This document shows positions 1-18,184 of a stretch of 43,377 nt of DNA, in pieces. The notes beneath the pieces were generated by a model. The model had not been told where the DNA came from. It saw only the letters and a program-made list of their open reading frames with translations, and did not search any database. Origin of the DNA: Nocardioides sp. (GTDB lineage: Bacteria; Actinomycetota; Actinomycetes; Propionibacteriales; Nocardioidaceae). The stretch spans positions 1 to 43,377 of the forward strand of contig JAJAYJ010000172.1 in assembly GCA_026786275.1 (NCBI GenBank), written 5' to 3'. How positions within the stretch are numbered: position 1 is the first letter of the stretch; each line of letters opens with the position of its first letter. The position numbers were made by a program, and so were the translations under genes.

Positions 1-110
1 CCCCCCCCCCCACGCGCGCCGCCCCGCCCCCCGGGCCGGAGCCCCCCCCCGCGGGGCGGGACTGCCCTGGGGCCCCCCCCCCCGCCCCCGCGCACCCCCG
101 GGGCCGGGTG
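1..110. other. GC-only low-complexity sequence, probable contig-edge artefact
   Basis: Long C and G homopolymers with almost no A/T, no coding structure, at the window edge. Confidence 0.6.
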
Positions 111-360: not shown

Positions 361-434
361 GGGCAGGTAGCTCAGTTGGTACGAGCGTCCGCCTGAAAAG
401 TGGAAGGTCGGCGGTTCGACCCCGCCCCTGCCCA
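361..434 (+). tRNA. tRNA-Phe (GAA)
   Basis: GGGCAGG...CTGAAAA...GGTTCGACCCC...CCTGCCCA cloverleaf; anticodon GAA; acceptor GGGCAGG/CCTGCCC. Confidence 0.93.
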
Positions 435-439
435 CGAGC
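398..439. repeat. att-like direct repeat, left copy (42 bp, within the tRNA-Phe 3' half)
   Basis: aagtggaaggtcggcggttcgaccccgcccctgcccacgagc, identical to 6615-6656. Confidence 0.92.
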
Positions 440-505: not shown

Positions 506-757
506 CTAGTCCCATTTCCAGTCTCGTTCGTCCCCCGCGAGGCTCTGGGACCCGTTGGGGCCGACGCTGTCGTCGGTGTTGCTCAGCTGTGATGCTTCGG
601 TCGGATCGCCGGAGAGAAGGGCGCCCATCCGGTCGGCGGCGTCGCGTCTCAGGCTGTCGATGACGTGCTGGTACCGCTTGAGCATCGCCACCGCCGACCA
701 GCCCATCAGGTCCATCACCACCCGTCGAGCAGCGAGAGAGGAGGTGAATTTCGACAC
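506..757 (-). pseudogene. Truncated tyrosine recombinase/integrase, C-terminal end only
   Basis: Protein RRVVMDLMGWSAVAMLKRYQHVIDSLRRDAADRMGALL resembles the integrase C-terminus with the catalytic Tyr in KRYQHV; the upstream catalytic region is absent and a stop lies just before the GTG; adjacent to the tRNA att site. Confidence 0.8.
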
Positions 758-820
758 TCAGAATGGTGACGGTCGGGGTCTACGGCTTCGACGGTGAGTC
801 CTTCCTGCCACGACTACGAC

Positions 821-1051
821 ATGCTCACGTCCCAGCTGCTGATCGACATAGGCCAGCGCCGTGGTGTCCGCGGACCGGACTACGCCTAGGCCAGGTTGCT
901 GCGGCTCTGGGCAGCCCTGACTCGTACTCGGATCGCCTACGAGCACCACCTTGACGTCTACCCCACCACCGAGGTGCGCCAACTCCACTACGCCGAGGAT
1001 GATCGCCAACGGGTAGGCAAGCCCTCGCGCCACGAACTCGCTGCCGAGTAA
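821..1051 (+). pseudogene. Possible decayed ORF of unknown function, one in-frame TAG
   Basis: Continuous frame MLTSQLLIDIGQRRGVRGPDYA*ARLLRLWAALTRTRIAYEHHLDVYPTTEVRQLHYAEDDRQRVGKPSRHELAAE; protein-like composition, no family recognised. Confidence 0.3.
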
Positions 1052-1242
1052 ACCTGCCGGTACACCGCAGAGGTCCTTGACCGTCAGGGTTTCAACGAAG
1101 GGCCGGGTCAGTTTGAAGCGGATGGGTTGTTGAGAAGCGCCGTGAAGGGCCTTCGGCGCAGCATTCATTGTTTCCTAGTGCTGGGCTTTGAGGCCTCGGC
1201 GCGGGGAGCTGATTCTCGGTGCTGAGGTGCGTTGGGTGGTCT

Positions 1243-2331
1243 CTATGGTTCGGTGGTGAAGACCGCGGAAATGACGTGTTGGCGTCGTGCGGCGACGTCG
1301 AGAAGAAGTTGGGGTGCCCCGGTGAGGGGGAGCACATGGGTGACGACATGGGTTCGGATGTCTAGGCTTCTCGAGATCAGAAGTCGGATGGTTTCGGCAG
1401 AGAGGCGTTGTCGGTCCCAGGTCGGGGCTGTGCCGCGCGGAGTACGTCCGATCTGTGCTGAACGCAGCGTGAGCCCGTTGTGGTGATACTCGCGGCCGAG
1501 GTTCAGCGCTTGCGACGTTTCGGTGTAGAAGGCCATGTCGATGACTGTCCCTTGGGGCCGTACGATGCGCATGGCCTCTGCTAGGGCGCGGACCCGGCCG
1601 CGGCACTGGAACACGACGTCCGCGCCGTGATCTCGGGCGCCGTGACGCCATCTGGTCTTGAGGACGAGCCCGGAATCGTCTGCGTCGAGTGCCTCGAACC
1701 CGATGGCCTGTGCTGTTTCCCGACGGCGGGGGTCTTCATCGATGATGACGACCTCGTCGGCGCCGTGCTCTTGGGCCAACATGGCGGTGAGGAGGCCGAT
1801 AAGGCCTGCGCCGCTCACGACGACGCGACGACCTTCAACGCCGTCGGCCAGTCGGGTGGTGGAGGGTCCTGCGGCATCGGCAGCGGCGTGCAAAATTCCG
1901 TTGGCACAGATGGGTCCGAGGTGCGCTACGTAGACCCCCAATAGGGGGTTGAGGTCGGCGGGCAACCGGACGACGTGTTCGTGGATGGGGTCGCTCACGT
2001 GCCAGGTGGCGTGTCCGTAGGTGGTGGCGACGACCTCGCCGGCGGTGAAGGCGTCGGTTCGTGACTCCGCAATGCGCGCCACCTCCATGTAGCCGAGGCG
2101 GGTGACCGGGTACGCGCTGGGTGGGCTTGCGGGGAGGAACAGACCGAGTTCCGGGTCGTGGGTCTCGCTCAGAGCGGGGTTGTCGCCTTTGAGGAAGGTG
2201 AGCTCGGTGCCTGCCGAAAGGCCCGTGGCGAGGGTGCGCAGGAGGAGCCCTCCCGCGGGCAGTGGGGGGACTTCCTCGTCTTGGAACTCGATCCTGCCGG
2301 GTGCAGGGATGACAAGGTTCTGGCGGATCAT
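1243..2331 (-). CDS. Medium-chain dehydrogenase/reductase (zinc-type alcohol dehydrogenase-like)
   Basis: 362 aa; GroES-like N-terminus and Rossmann motif VVVSGAGLIGLLTAMLAQEHGADEVVIIDED; ATGA overlap with upstream gene. Confidence 0.85.
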   Translation of the reverse strand: MIRQNLVIPAPGRIEFQDEEVPPLPAGGLLLRTLATGLSAGTELTFLKGDNPALSETHDPELGLFLPASPPSAYPVTRLGYMEVARIAESRTDAFTAGEVVATTYGHATWHVSDPIHEHVVRLPADLNPLLGVYVAHLGPICANGILHAAADAAGPSTTRLADGVEGRRVVVSGAGLIGLLTAMLAQEHGADEVVIIDEDPRRRETAQAIGFEALDADDSGLVLKTRWRHGARDHGADVVFQCRGRVRALAEAMRIVRPQGTVIDMAFYTETSQALNLGREYHHNGLTLRSAQIGRTPRGTAPTWDRQRLSAETIRLLISRSLDIRTHVVTHVLPLTGAPQLLLDVAARRQHVISAVFTTEP

Positions 2332-3335
2332 GTACGAGTGCCCGGGTCGGGGTGGCCGATTCTGACGGGTTGCCCGACGAGGGCGGACTCGGCGAGGGCG
2401 GCGCCCAGCTGCTGGGTCCTCGCGGCCTCCTCGTACGGCGTCCGGGTGGTGGCGCGAAGCCCGGTCACCGCTTCGATGAACTCCCGATCGACGGTGACGC
2501 GGGGATCCTCGAGCACCGTGACGTCGTCGTGGTCTCGTCCTCGGTCGATGGCGAGCCCTGTTTCGGTGAGCTCGAGGGCCAGAGCGTCGCTGAAGGTCTG
2601 CAGGCTCGAGCGGTGTTTGCTCACCAGCAGGGAGGTGGCGCTGAAGGTGGCTACCGCCCCGGAAGCGAACCGGACGGTGGCGGCTGTCGCGTCGTCGATG
2701 TCGCCTCCGCGTTCGATGTCCGAGACGCTGTGGGTGAGCCGGGCCCCTGCGGCGTAGACCTCTTCAGCTTCGCCGAGCAGCAGTCGCGCGAGGTCGAGGA
2801 GGTGGGTCAGCTGTTCGACGACCTGGCCCCCGGACTTGTCGCGTTGGCCCCACCACGCGACGGGTGGTCGCTTGTCGAGCCAGTGCCCGGCTGCCATCAT
2901 CGGCGGGTTGGTGGCGAGCAGCTTCTGGGCCTGCTCGACCACGTCGAGGCAGCGCCAGTGGTACCCGGTGCCGGTGACGATCCCGGCCTGTTGGATGCGT
3001 GCTGCGATGTTCTCGACGAGGGTGGGGTCGAGTCCGACGGGCTTCTCCACGAACAGGGGCAGAGCCCGTTCGATTGCTGCGTACTCGGCTTCGCCGTGAG
3101 CGAAGGGGGGGACGCACACGTAGACGGCGTCAGGTTCGCTGGAGTCCAGTGCCTGCTCGATGACGCGGTAGTCGGGGCAGCCATGTGCCGAGGCGAGGAT
3201 CTGAGCGGCCGTTTGGTCGGGGTCCACGACCCCGACGATCGCGGCTCCGCCCTCAGGTCCTTCGAGGGCGCTCAGCACGGCTGCGTGACGTTGGGCGACA
3301 CCGCCTGCCCCGACCATCAGTACGCGTGTGGTCAC
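2328..3335 (-). CDS. Gfo/Idh/MocA family oxidoreductase
   Basis: RVLMVGAGGVAQRHAAVLSAL...VYVCVPPFAHGEAEYAAIERALPLFVEKPVGLD; GTG start overlapping the GT4 stop. Confidence 0.88.
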   Translation of the reverse strand: MTTRVLMVGAGGVAQRHAAVLSALEGPEGGAAIVGVVDPDQTAAQILASAHGCPDYRVIEQALDSSEPDAVYVCVPPFAHGEAEYAAIERALPLFVEKPVGLDPTLVENIAARIQQAGIVTGTGYHWRCLDVVEQAQKLLATNPPMMAAGHWLDKRPPVAWWGQRDKSGGQVVEQLTHLLDLARLLLGEAEEVYAAGARLTHSVSDIERGGDIDDATAATVRFASGAVATFSATSLLVSKHRSSLQTFSDALALELTETGLAIDRGRDHDDVTVLEDPRVTVDREFIEAVTGLRATTRTPYEEAARTQQLGAALAESALVGQPVRIGHPDPGTRT

Positions 3336-4480
3336 GATGATGTCCCTTCGAGGAGCTTGCGATAGAGATCCACGTAGCTGGTGGCCATGGCACGTGGGGT
3401 CCACCGTGCGGCCGAGCTGCGGCAGGTCTCGGCTTCGATGGCGTCGAGCTTGCCCAGCCACAGCGCCATCTCGGTCTCGTCCTGGGCGAGGTAGCCGTTC
3501 TTGCCGTGGGTGACGAGGCTGGGCAGCACCCCCAGCGGTGTGGCAACGACGGGTACGCCACGGGTGAGGGCCTCGACAACCGCGGTGGCCCCGGGTTCTG
3601 CCCAGCGAAGCGGGCTGAGCAGCACCCGGGCGGACTGCAGCAGGCGCTCCTTGGCCGCGCCGCTGATTGCGCCGACCCACCGCACGTCGGTGTCGTTGAG
3701 CAAAGGCTGCACGTGGTCCAGGAAGTAGCGGACGTCCGGATGGCCGGCTAGCTGCGCATCCCCCTCGGCAAGTCGTCGCTCGAGCTCGTGGGGGTCGTCG
3801 ATGCCCGCTACCGGACCTGCCAGGACCAGGGGGACTCCGGCTGCGTGGCACGCACGGGCCGCGATGTCCTGGCCTTTGTCGGAGGTGATGCGGGCCAGCA
3901 CCAGCGCATGCTCCCCCTGCTCGATGAGCGCCTCGTCGCCGACCGGGGTCGGTGCGGCGGCGGCGAGCGGAACCACGCCCAGGGTCTGGTCCTGCAGGTT
4001 CTGGGGGGCCCGGGCGAGTTGTGACTGGGAGACGGCGGCGAAGCACACCCTGCCCCGACCCTGGAACCGGGTGTAGAACTCGGGGTGCTTGGCCAGGTCC
4101 CAGTGCAGCGTCTGCAGGGTGGGGGGTGCCTGGTCGCCCATCGCGGCCAGCACGGCGGGGCCGACGACCTCAAGATGATCATGGACCAGGTCGACCTGGA
4201 GGCCGTTGTCGAGGGCGGTGGTGACCGTGTGCATGTGGGCGTGGGCGATCCCAGAGACCAGGTTGTAGGGCTGTGCCACGCGAGGCAGCTGGGGCCCATC
4301 GAGGGTTCGGATGTAGTCGTCGGCCTCCAGGGTGCTGGTGCCAACGGTGGCAAGCACCACACGAAAACCCTGTTGGCGCAGTTCGGGCACCAAGGTGGCG
4401 ACCACGGTCTCGATGCCGCCGTAGCCCTGCGGGGGGACCGGGAGCCACGGTCCGGCGTTCATCAGGATGGTAGGGCTCAT
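3332..4480 (-). CDS. Glycosyltransferase family 4 protein
   Basis: 382 aa; PPQGYGGIETVVATLVPEL N-terminus; C-terminal AEPGATAVVEALTRGVPVVATPLGVLPSLV. Confidence 0.88.
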   Translation of the reverse strand: MSPTILMNAGPWLPVPPQGYGGIETVVATLVPELRQQGFRVVLATVGTSTLEADDYIRTLDGPQLPRVAQPYNLVSGIAHAHMHTVTTALDNGLQVDLVHDHLEVVGPAVLAAMGDQAPPTLQTLHWDLAKHPEFYTRFQGRGRVCFAAVSQSQLARAPQNLQDQTLGVVPLAAAAPTPVGDEALIEQGEHALVLARITSDKGQDIAARACHAAGVPLVLAGPVAGIDDPHELERRLAEGDAQLAGHPDVRYFLDHVQPLLNDTDVRWVGAISGAAKERLLQSARVLLSPLRWAEPGATAVVEALTRGVPVVATPLGVLPSLVTHGKNGYLAQDETEMALWLGKLDAIEAETCRSSAARWTPRAMATSYVDLYRKLLEGTSS

Positions 4481-5454
4481 CGCTGACGCTCCAGCGCGCG
4501 GTTCTGGTACTCCATGACATCGGCCATCGGCGGCCGCTCAATGATGGCGACGTCGCTGGTGTGCGGGATGAAGGCGTCACCGTCGCGGGTGAACTGGGTG
4601 AGCTCGGTCACCGGGTCGATGGTGAGCACACCGTACCCGTGCCGCTCCACCCGTGAGAGCAAGGCGAGGTAGACCTGGGCGGCCATGCGTCCCAGTGCCT
4701 CGTCCGAGCTGTTGCGGTGGCGCCGACTGCCCAGGTCTACCTGCACCATGGAGTCCAGGCCGGCTGTCTCGAGGACGTCGATGAGCATGGCGATCTCAAC
4801 GCCGTACCCCGACACAAACGGGAGCCTCTCCAGCAACGAGCGTCGCGCAGCGTACTCGCCGGCCAGGGGCTGGACGACACCTGCCAGCAGCGGCCAGTGC
4901 AGGTTGAGCAGGGGACGGGCGAGGATCTCAGTGACCCGCCCACCGCCGGCCGGCAACAGGATCTGCCCACTCTTCAGAGGCCGGTCGTAAAAGGCCTTGA
5001 CGAACTCGACGCTCGAATCGGCCAAAAGAGGGCCCACGAGACCGACGGCGAACTGGGGGTCGAAGTCCTCCAAGTCGGCATCGATGAACGCCACCACGTC
5101 GCCGTGGGTGACCTGCAACGACTTCCATAGCGCCTCACCCTTCCCGGGACGATTCACCCAGCCCGGTAGAACCTCGTCTTGCTGCACCACCCGGGCACCA
5201 GCGGCTCGGGCCACCGCGGCCGTGCGATCCCACGAGTCGGAGTCGATGACGATCAGCTCATCAATGAGGGGCACCCGCTCCATCAGCTCGACCCGGAGCG
5301 CCTCGACGATGTGCCCGACCGTCGCTTCCTCGTTCCTGGCCGGCAGGACGACGGAGACGCTCTGCGCGGCCTTGGTCTCGGTCAGCGACAAGCGATCCCA
5401 CTGCTCGCCGGTGGTCGTGCGACGGTCGAACCAGTCCTGGGCCTTGGGGTACAT
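4477..5454 (-). CDS. gpgS: Glucosyl-3-phosphoglycerate synthase-like glycosyltransferase (GT81/GpgS-like)
   Basis: 325 aa; SVVLPARNEEATVGHIV, PGKGEALWKSL, DADLEDFDPQF, VKAFYDRPL, GGGRVTEILARPLLNLHWPLLAGVVQPLAGEYAARRSLLERLPF as in GpgS. Confidence 0.85.
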   Translation of the reverse strand: MYPKAQDWFDRRTTTGEQWDRLSLTETKAAQSVSVVLPARNEEATVGHIVEALRVELMERVPLIDELIVIDSDSWDRTAAVARAAGARVVQQDEVLPGWVNRPGKGEALWKSLQVTHGDVVAFIDADLEDFDPQFAVGLVGPLLADSSVEFVKAFYDRPLKSGQILLPAGGGRVTEILARPLLNLHWPLLAGVVQPLAGEYAARRSLLERLPFVSGYGVEIAMLIDVLETAGLDSMVQVDLGSRRHRNSSDEALGRMAAQVYLALLSRVERHGYGVLTIDPVTELTQFTRDGDAFIPHTSDVAIIERPPMADVMEYQNRALERQR

Positions 5455-5455
5455 C

Positions 5456-6130
5456 TCAGGACGACCCCGTCTGTGCGCCGCTCGAGGGGAGCCCCGCCAG
5501 GGGGATCACGTCAAGGCGGGTCCACTCATAGTGCCGTGCGCGTCGAGTGACAGCGGCCAGCACCACTGCCTCCACCCTGAGCGAAACCGGGAGCGCTTCA
5601 CTGGTGAGGTGTCCCATCACGTCTTCTCGTTCACAGTGGGTGTTGATGTAGGCGACGCTGAGGTGAGGCTCCACCTCCTCAGGTCCGGGCCAGGGCACCG
5701 CGCTGGGGACGCTGCCGGGACTGCGCCGCGGGAGGTGACGGCGCAGCTGCTCCACGCCCGTGCCCGAGTGGGCTTGCAGGACGACCGCTCCGGGCAGCGT
5801 CGCGACCGGACCCACCCGCAAGATGAAGGACCCAACGGACCACAACGCAGCCCGCGCCTGATCAATGACTCCACCTAGTTCCCCGGACGGCAGCTCGTCA
5901 GCAAACCCGACCTCCCCCAGACTGAGATGAAGCCACTCGCTCGGCACAAGGTCGACGTTGACAGAACCGCTGATCTGCTCCCCGACAGCTCCTGCCAGCG
6001 CAGCAACCACGGGATGGTCCTCGAACGTGAGGTACCACCACACGCACACACGCCCGGGTGTCCACTCGGGGCGCCATCGCCAGTGCTCGACCAAGTGCTC
6101 CGGCGCGGGGCAGTCTGTGGTGCTCAACAC
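5456..6130 (-). CDS. 2'-5' RNA ligase / 2H phosphoesterase family protein
   Basis: Two HxS motifs (EWLHLSLGEVGF and EPHLSVAYINTH); GTG start (VLSTTDCPAPEHLVEHW). Confidence 0.75.
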   Translation of the reverse strand: MLSTTDCPAPEHLVEHWRWRPEWTPGRVCVWWYLTFEDHPVVAALAGAVGEQISGSVNVDLVPSEWLHLSLGEVGFADELPSGELGGVIDQARAALWSVGSFILRVGPVATLPGAVVLQAHSGTGVEQLRRHLPRRSPGSVPSAVPWPGPEEVEPHLSVAYINTHCEREDVMGHLTSEALPVSLRVEAVVLAAVTRRARHYEWTRLDVIPLAGLPSSGAQTGSS

Positions 6131-6614: not shown

Positions 6615-6656
6615 AAGTGGAAGGTCGGCGGTTCGACCCCGCCCCTGCCCACGAGC
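6615..6656. repeat. att-like direct repeat, right copy (displaced tRNA-Phe 3' fragment)
   Basis: 42-bp perfect match to 398-439, without a tRNA 5' half upstream. Confidence 0.92.
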
Positions 6657-16907: not shown

Positions 16908-16984
16908 GGCCCCGTAGCGCAGTTGGTTAGCGCGCCGCCCTGTCACGGCGGAGGCCGCGGGTTCGAGTCCCGTCGGGGTCGCCA
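16908..16984 (+). tRNA. tRNA-Asp (GUC), CCA encoded
   Basis: GGCCCCGTAGCGCAGTTGGTTAGCGCGCCGCCCTGTCACGGCGG...GGTTCGAGTCCCGTCGGGGTCGCCA; anticodon GTC. Confidence 0.95.
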
Positions 16985-16990
16985 CCGACA

Positions 16991-17020
16991 CAGGCCGGTT
17001 CCTTCCGAGGAGCCGGCCTG
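16991..17020. terminator. Hairpin terminator downstream of tRNA-Asp
   Basis: caggccggttcc-ttccga-ggagccggcctg, 12-bp stem with one G-T. Confidence 0.55.
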
Positions 17021-17040
17021 CGGCCATCTCCGGGGCCCAC

Positions 17041-17688
17041 TCAGGCGCGCGGCTCGACGTCGACCGGGGTGCCGAACGCGATGCTGCGGTCGTCGGTGCG
17101 GAACAGCTCCGGGCACGTCGTCAGGGTGATCAGGTGCGGCTGCGAGCCCAGCGCCGGCGTCACACCGCCGGCCGCCGGGTTGACCGGCCGGTCGGTGAGC
17201 ATCCAGGTCTGGGTGAACGGCACGGTCAGGTCGGTGCCGCCGGTGGTCTGGGCGTAGGTGTCCTTCGCCTCCCGCGTCTGCACCACGATCTCGTCGCCGA
17301 CCTGGAGCGAGGGCAGGTCCTGGAGCGGTTCACCGTGGGTGGCCCGGTGCGCCGCCAGCGCGTCGTTGCCGGGCTGGCCCGGCCCGGCGGTGCCCTCGAA
17401 GTGGCCGTAGCCTGCGGCGAGCGCGTCGTCGGAGACGCCCTCCAGCACCGGCACCTCGTACGCCGCGCCGAACGCCGGGATGCGCACGACCGCCCTGGTC
17501 ACGCCGTGCTCGGTGCGGGCCTGCTCCGCGCCGGACTGCCACTGCTGCTCGAGCTCGGAGACGACCTGGTCCTGCTGGCGGTGGCTGACCCAGGTGGTGC
17601 CCCCGGTGGTGCCCCAGTACTGCCAGCCCACCCAGCCCAGCACGGCGGTCCCGACCGCGACCAGCAGCAGGCCGAGCATCACCGACAC
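17041..17688 (-). CDS. Class E sortase
   Basis: N-terminal TM; NDALAAHRATHG (His), LITLTTCPE (Cys), TDDRSIAFG (Arg). Confidence 0.85.
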   Translation of the reverse strand: MSVMLGLLLVAVGTAVLGWVGWQYWGTTGGTTWVSHRQQDQVVSELEQQWQSGAEQARTEHGVTRAVVRIPAFGAAYEVPVLEGVSDDALAAGYGHFEGTAGPGQPGNDALAAHRATHGEPLQDLPSLQVGDEIVVQTREAKDTYAQTTGGTDLTVPFTQTWMLTDRPVNPAAGGVTPALGSQPHLITLTTCPELFRTDDRSIAFGTPVDVEPRA

Positions 17689-17827
17689 CCGGCCGCCGCG
17701 CGTGCGCGCGGGTCGCCGGGCAGGCGCCCCCAGCGAGACGTCGCCCAGGGTGGTCGCGCTGCGTCGTCACGCGTCCACGGTAGATGCCCGACCTCGCACC
17801 GACAGGTCCTTCGGGGAGACTGGGGGT

Positions 17828-18184
17828 GTGCCGATCGAGATGGACGACGAACGCTTCGACGCCCTGGTGGACCGCGCCCTCGACGAGATCCCTGAGGAGC
17901 TGGCGTCCCTGGTGCGCAACGTCGTGGTGCTGGTGCAGGCCGAGCCGCCGCCCGAGGAGCCCGACGACCTGCTCGGGCTCTACGACGGGGTGGCGCTGAC
18001 CGAGCGCGACAGCACGATGCTGCCCGGGCTGCCCGACCGGATCCTCGTCTTCCGGGGCCCGCTGCTCGACTTCTGCGACACCGAGGAGCAGCTCACCGAC
18101 GAGGTCCGGATCACCGTGGTGCACGAGATTGCCCACCACTTCGGCATCGACGACGACCGGCTGCACCAGCTCGGCTACGCCTGA
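17828..18184 (+). CDS. Metallopeptidase (zincin-like) family protein
   Basis: HEIAHHFGIDDDRLHQLGY zinc motif; GTG (or ATG 17840) start. Confidence 0.88.
   Translation: MPIEMDDERFDALVDRALDEIPEELASLVRNVVVLVQAEPPPEEPDDLLGLYDGVALTERDSTMLPGLPDRILVFRGPLLDFCDTEEQLTDEVRITVVHEIAHHFGIDDDRLHQLGYA

Follow-up and report, generated by a model that had tools for sequence, protein, structure and literature searches.

A mobile GpgS-glycosyltransferase-dehydrogenase cassette on a decayed tRNA-Phe island of Nocardioides, a candidate route to edited glycosides

Gene content and layout of the cassette

A 43,377-nt stretch of Nocardioides sp. DNA (contig JAJAYJ010000172.1, hereafter the window) carries five intact minus-strand open reading frames (ORFs), spanning 1243-6130, that encode a 2H phosphoesterase, a glucosyl-3-phosphoglycerate synthase (GpgS), a GT4 glycosyltransferase, a Gfo/Idh/MocA oxidoreductase (Gfo) and an MDR-superfamily dehydrogenase (MDR). 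The window is the entire contig C172 of a draft genome (G000) of 2.7 Mb in 189 contigs, which is 78% complete. The genes of the cassette are as follows.

1243..2331, minus strand: MDR-superfamily dehydrogenase, a distant YcjQ relative, without the usual catalytic zinc Cys and His; Pfam ADH_zinc_N above cut-off
2328..3335, minus strand: Gfo/Idh/MocA oxidoreductase, GTG start, EKP motif, invariant E174 and H178; Pfam GFO_IDH_MocA above cut-off
3332..4480, minus strand: GT4 glycosyltransferase of a cassette-specific clade; Pfam Glycos_transf_1 above cut-off
4477..5454, minus strand: GpgS (GT81, glucosyl-3-phosphoglycerate synthase) of cassette type, separate from the housekeeping copy at G000:C81; NF010496
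5456..6130, minus strand: 2H phosphoesterase, optional first gene, GTG start, H68-L-S and H156-L-S; Pfam 2_5_RNA_ligase2 above cut-off

The first junction (5456/5454) is a gap of 1 nt, and the other three (4480/4477, 3335/3332 and 2331/2328) are overlaps of 4 nt. The five genes, their coordinates and their tight spacing had been given in a preliminary description of this DNA, and the ORFs, junctions and domain families were all recovered here. That description had overlooked the frame in which the genes lie, consisting of a tRNA-Phe gene, a 42-nt attachment-site (att) repeat and an integrase remnant, as well as the lower GC content at third codon positions (GC3), which ranges over 0.76-0.86 in the cassette genes, compared with 0.85-0.97 in the window's remaining long genes. 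The arrangement is more than chance, since all five genes recur in genome G238 in the same order, with gaps of 0, -4, -4 and -4 nt.

Conservation and co-inheritance of the cassette

The window MDR was used as the query in a survey of 220 genomes of the genus. Besides the window, three of the 220 (G045, G214 and G238) hold an MDR that is 63-65% identical, and all three carry GpgS-GT4-Gfo-MDR in the window order at unrelated chromosomal sites, the Gfo frame of G045 being recovered by tblastn after a simple gene caller had dropped it. The genes flanking the cassette vary from site to site. The same four genes in the same order were found in G333, from another family of the order, and GpgS-GT4-Gfo in a metagenome-assembled genome of Nocardioidaceae. 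In a more distant genome (G696) and in Nonomuraea gerenzanensis, GT4-GpgS and Gfo-MDR diverge from each other; in G872, GpgS, Gfo-MDR, GT4 and a HAD phosphatase gene all fall inside 5 kb; and in G504 and G534, GT4 lies near Gfo-MDR, with GpgS elsewhere in the genome. In the three loci checked, distant GT4 matches (E about 1e-50) lay apart from any GpgS, Gfo or MDR gene.

All four gene trees place G045 and G333, which belong to different families, as sisters (GpgS 97/96, GT4 99/98, Gfo 100/99, MDR 95/97). The trees therefore indicate that the cassette is horizontally acquired and is transferred as a unit. A conserved, mobile cassette is thus well supported; if the pathway proposed below is right, it would represent a mobile metabolic trait in about 1-2% of the genomes of the genus. 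The preliminary description had proposed that the five genes serve one pathway, and had named their being unlinked in other genomes as a finding that would count against it. GpgS, GT4, Gfo and MDR are linked elsewhere, and this linkage, together with the fused domains described below and the concordant trees, favours the one-pathway proposal. The proposed five-gene linkage holds for these four genes, the 2H gene being optional and joined to the cassette in the window and G238 only.

A search of plasmids with the MDR led to Agrobacterium and Rhizobium proteins of 1,078 and 1,080 residues in which GT4, Gfo and MDR are fused (accessions WP_027674882.1 and WP_131718348.1).

L077:4850-8086: GT4-Gfo-MDR fusion locus, Rhizobiaceae plasmid
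L078:4838-8080: GT4-Gfo-MDR fusion locus, Rhizobiaceae plasmid

The GT4 domain occupies residues 1-361, the Gfo domain residues 372-690 (42% identical to the window protein) and the MDR domain residues 718-1074 (49% identical). The domain order is that of the cassette operon; the database annotation is glycosyltransferase only. The fusion thus places the same three activities on one chain, but with another type of GT4 and without GpgS. It is followed by a gene for a protein of ~760 residues in which a GT4 domain is combined with a C-terminal half that gives no Pfam match, and in one of the two loci the gene before the fusion carries the annotation UDP-galactopyranose mutase. A second operon type within the genus likewise combines another GT4 with Gfo and MDR and has no GpgS (five genomes, G057, G243, G192, G246 and G122; loci L026 and L041-L044). 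From the rhizobial fusion and these separate GpgS-free operons, it follows that the GT4-Gfo-MDR trio is the core module, to which GpgS supplies one kind of acceptor.

A decayed integrative element at tRNA-Phe

The cassette lies within the following frame.

361..435, plus strand: tRNA-Phe (gaa), the presumed attachment site of the island; ARAGORN
398..439, plus strand: att copy 1, 42 nt comprising the tRNA-Phe 3' end plus 4 nt; exact direct repeat with 6615-6656
506..757, minus strand: tyrosine integrase remnant, a C-terminal tail in an 83-residue ORF adjoining tRNA-Phe; phrog_1 integrase, E 9.3e-6
6615..6656, plus strand: att copy 2, a perfect 42-nt copy of the tRNA-Phe 3' end and the right border of the island; direct repeat

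The 42-nt repeat has only these two copies in the window. The integrase remnant is 62% identical over 34 residues to tyrosine integrases annotated in the Arthrobacter phages PeggyLeg03 and Karkharias, and 70% over 33 residues to a viral contig; its match to Pfam Phage_integrase (E 0.074) covers profile positions 148-168 of 172. Thus the tRNA gene, the 3'-end repeat at the far border and an integrase, as a remnant, are all present, as in tRNA-integrated islands and prophages with tyrosine integrases, from which the window island differs in keeping only a fragment of the integrase. The cassette is therefore carried on an integrative element, about 6.2 kb long and now decayed, between tRNA-Phe and the 42-nt copy of its 3' end. 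Since the integrase is only a fragment, the element has probably lost the ability to move on its own. The interval 748-1130 (plus strand), between the integrase remnant and the cassette, resembled a broken DUF488-like gene by eye; it gave no Pfam match and was dropped.

Additional copies of the tRNA-Phe 3' end were seen in other genera of the order (G066, G072, G077 and G080), and integrase genes directly adjoin tRNA-Phe in G066, G069 and G074; this tRNA gene seems to be a common target of integration in the order. Comparison of the window remnant with integrases adjoining tRNA-Phe in other genera yielded no substantial match.

GpgS and the phosphatase step

The window GpgS scores 426.8 bits against NCBIfam NF010496 (glucosyl-3-phosphoglycerate synthase), for which the cut-off is 262. 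The Mycobacterium tuberculosis enzyme has an Asp-X-Asp motif, a Lys114/Glu232 network, His258, Arg256, Asn260, the Val186/Thr187 acceptor contacts and Ser210 (PMC2581804). When mapped onto that account, the window protein keeps K105, D125, D127, V174, T175, L197, Y217, E220, R244, H246, N248 and M257, the counterparts being D125-A-D127, K105/E220, H246, R244, N248 and V174/T175. Of the donor, metal and acceptor residues that the M. tuberculosis account names, only Ser210 is not kept; it is Ala198 in the window and Gly in the solved GpgS 7p5l. What had been called GpgS-like is, as judged by the curated model and the active-site residues, predicted to be a true GpgS. The cassette GpgS falls outside the housekeeping GpgS clade of the genus (100/99), and is the only GpgS found in G045, G333 and G696.

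In G045 and G333, a GpgP-like histidine phosphatase gene is divergent from and adjoins the cassette GpgS. These two phosphatases are 64% identical to each other, compared with 38-45% for other genomic copies, and the best PDB match of each is GpgP. In G872 a HAD-IIB phosphatase adjoins GT4, while in the window and G238 the 2H gene stands at the first position in place of a neighbouring phosphatase. The earlier statement that no GpgP is recognised holds for the window, but not beyond it, given these neighbours and a GpgP-like protein encoded at G000:C98, outside the cassette.

The cassette thus shares the GpgS donor and acceptor residues, and in two relatives a GpgP-like neighbour, with the GpgS/GpgP glucosylglycerate pathway of mycobacteria and other actinobacteria, but has a second GpgS lineage together with GT4, Gfo and MDR. 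In Petrotoga, mannosylglucosylglycerate (MGG) is made by GpgS, MggA (GT4) and MggB (a HAD phosphatase). This pathway has in common with the cassette a GpgS and a GT4, with likeness to MggA at the level of the GT4 family, and the HAD-IIB phosphatase by GT4 in G872, whereas the cassette adds two dehydrogenases.

The dehydrogenase pair and its relationship to the ycj cluster

The window Gfo matches Pfam GFO_IDH_MocA (4.5e-20), and its E97-K98-P99 is invariant in 10 relatives. The usual catalytic Asp-x3-His of the second domain is absent: His178 is kept and the Asp is replaced by an invariant Glu174, whereas YcjS has Asp. Foldseek places the Gfo model (pLDDT 88.5) among sugar/inositol dehydrogenases, namely YjhC, RgNanOx, GenD2 and the scyllo-inositol and levoglucosan dehydrogenases. 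The MDR model (pLDDT 79.5) matches general MDRs, and the substrate is therefore not fixed by fold alone.

The window MDR departs from the zinc alcohol dehydrogenases, with S-A-G-T-E and G-Y-M-E replacing Cys-Gly-Thr/Ser and Gly-His-Glu. YcjQ of E. coli departs similarly (G-T-E, G-N-M-V). Matches to the window MDR in the PDB lie mainly over the nucleotide-binding half; matches at 25% on Enterobacter plasmids proved to be ycj clusters and led to YcjQ. The window MDR and YcjQ can be aligned end to end (E 1e-15, 348 columns), with a profile match of 1.4e-28 across both domains. The two proteins share the GTE and LG-x-E-x-H-x-N motifs, and actinobacterial catabolic MDRs bridge them. On these alignments, the window MDR is a distant relative of YcjQ, a glycoside 3-dehydrogenase, in keeping with the preliminary suggestion that the dehydrogenases edit the redox state of a sugar.

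The E. coli ycj cluster encodes an alpha-glucosyl-2-glycerate phosphorylase, a kojibiose phosphorylase and the 3-keto-glucoside enzymes YcjQ, YcjR and YcjS (PMC11543891). The title of the YcjR paper, as cited there, names D-gulosides and D-glucosides. Both ycjQRS/ycjM-W and the cassette pair a Gfo/Idh/MocA protein with a YcjQ-family MDR in a glucosylglycerate context; the E. coli cluster is catabolic, with an importer, phosphorylases and the epimerase YcjR, whereas the cassette has glycosyltransferases and neither importer nor epimerase. In Nonomuraea, genes for the probable synthesis and breakdown stand side by side: the cassette adjoins, convergently, an operon of a YcjQ-like MDR, a YcjR-like epimerase (39% to YcjR) and a hydrolase, followed by a second TIM-barrel protein and sugar importer genes. 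The closest solved relatives of the hydrolase are 2z07/4wva (Thermus) and 5ohc (mycobacterial), which we take to be mannosyl- and glucosylglycerate hydrolases. A comparable cluster in G103 (L045 3869-14437) comprises a sugar ABC importer, a ROK regulator, Gfo, a YcjQ-like MDR, a YcjR-like epimerase and a glycosylglycerate-hydrolase-like enzyme. Among the cassette genomes searched, a YcjR-type epimerase was found only in Nonomuraea and in G534, which has the looser gene set.

The 2H protein has two HxS motifs, H68-L-S and H156-L-S in the window; they are H-V-T and H-L-S in G238, and HxT/HxS in the aligned homologues of the genus. A defence system or an element acting against the cyclic-oligonucleotide-based anti-phage signalling system (anti-CBASS) was considered on account of this gene and rejected, with no PADLOC match of weight and no PHROG for the 2H proteins.

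Proposed pathway and alternative explanations

On the evidence of gene linkage and shared inheritance, the fusions, the conserved active sites, the kinship of the MDR with YcjQ and the catabolic operon in Nonomuraea, the most likely reading, which we regard as about an even call, is that the cassette makes an edited hexosyl-glucosyl-glycerate, serving as a compatible solute or small glycoside. In this pathway, GpgS would join glucose from a nucleotide sugar to 3-phosphoglycerate, forming glucosyl-3-phosphoglycerate, followed by addition of a second hexose by GT4, probably onto the GpgS product, as by MggA in MGG synthesis. The phosphate would be removed by the GpgP-like or HAD enzyme of the cassette in some genomes, and here probably by the chromosomal GpgP-like protein. 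Gfo may then oxidise a ring hydroxyl, most likely at C3 of the hexose, and the YcjQ-like MDR may reduce the ketone, probably on the other face, giving a redox-neutral C3 epimerisation. A galactosyl donor would thereby yield a guloside without a C4 epimerase, and a glucosyl donor an alloside. The 2H protein perhaps clears a cyclic-phosphate by-product, and the two phosphorylases of the ycj cluster would make sense if the sugars were joined by a kojibiose-like 1,2 linkage. The order of the steps and the physiological role of the cassette are what we infer. In its most specific form, a biosynthetic route to D-gulosyl- (or D-allosyl-) hexosyl-glucosyl-glycerate, with C3 epimerisation after transfer by a GT4-coupled dehydrogenase pair, the proposal is speculative and we think it rather improbable.

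Several observations weigh against an edited glycosyl-glycerate. The Gfo/MDR pair also stands beside other GT4s without GpgS, in the five genomes of the genus and the rhizobial fusions, so that a glycosyl-glycerate is not necessarily what the pair acts on. The window proteins share only about 25% identity with YcjQ and YcjS, and the 2H protein is not of a known phosphomonoesterase type. Only in Nonomuraea was the catabolic operon seen beside the cassette; in G103 it stands alone. The cassette contains no YcjR-type C4 epimerase, and a search of cassette genomes at E<=1e-25, the 78% complete G000 among them, found none outside Nonomuraea and G534, and so a D-guloside needs a galactosyl donor.

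Glucosylglycerate-type solutes are already known, and the cassette could make such an ordinary solute, either glucosylglycerate or an MGG-kind hexosyl-glucosylglycerate, through GpgS, GT4 and a phosphatase, with the dehydrogenases supplying or recycling an unrelated precursor and no editing of the glycoside. The intact GpgS active site, the GpgP-like or HAD phosphatase by the cassette in G045, G333 and G872, and the existence of MGG solutes (PMC3694870) fit this account; we nonetheless consider it unlikely, as Gfo and MDR accompany GT4 also where GpgS is absent and are joined to a GT4 in one chain in rhizobia, and the MDR is a relative of YcjQ, a glycoside-level enzyme. We are equally doubtful that the GpgS product serves solely as the primer of a specialised metabolite or of a larger glycan of the cytoplasm or surface, with GT4, Gfo and MDR adding and editing one sugar. 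GpgS does start methylglucose lipopolysaccharide (MGLP) synthesis in mycobacteria (PMC2581804, PMC4555173), and the further GT4-containing gene after the rhizobial fusion, as well as the mutase annotation upstream in one of the two loci, would suit such a role; however, the conserved set in the cassette loci has no further glycosyltransferase, methyltransferase, acyltransferase, exporter or polymerase. Finally, the island could be a decayed passenger element, with a cargo that has ceased to be expressed or useful, as the reduction of the integrase to its C-terminal tail and the GC3 below that of the rest of the window might suggest. With all five ORFs intact and active-site residues conserved, this seems very unlikely.

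If an edited hexosyl-glucosyl-glycerate is indeed the product, the cassette would represent a new way to rare-sugar glycosides, in which the sugar is edited once attached and the editing enzymes are, in some bacteria, fused to the glycosyltransferase. It would then be a candidate source of the substrates of the E. coli ycj pathway and, were the product a guloside, a natural source of the gulosides degraded by ycjQRS-type pathways. In the papers searched, no description was found of a GpgS pathway with two glycoside-level dehydrogenases, nor any paper on mannosylglucosyl-3-phosphoglycerate together with glucosylglycerate, or on bi-domain oxidoreductases with glycosyltransferases.

Gene order around the tRNA genes

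In relatives, no cassette lies beside tRNA-Phe; the window gene order is, however, rearranged there, with cstA located elsewhere and not beside tRNA-Phe. Owing to this rearrangement, no relative was found that combines matching flanks with an unoccupied site. The tRNA-Asp, tRNA-Glu and tRNA-Phe genes of these relatives adjoin one another beside a metallopeptidase-like gene, whereas in the window the Glu and Phe tRNAs (160-435) lie 16 kb from the Asp tRNA (16908) and the metallopeptidase homologue (both within 16908-18181), in the opposite orientation. This split suggests an inversion or other rearrangement. The contig itself starts with a long G-rich low-complexity run (window 1-100), likely an assembly-end artefact.

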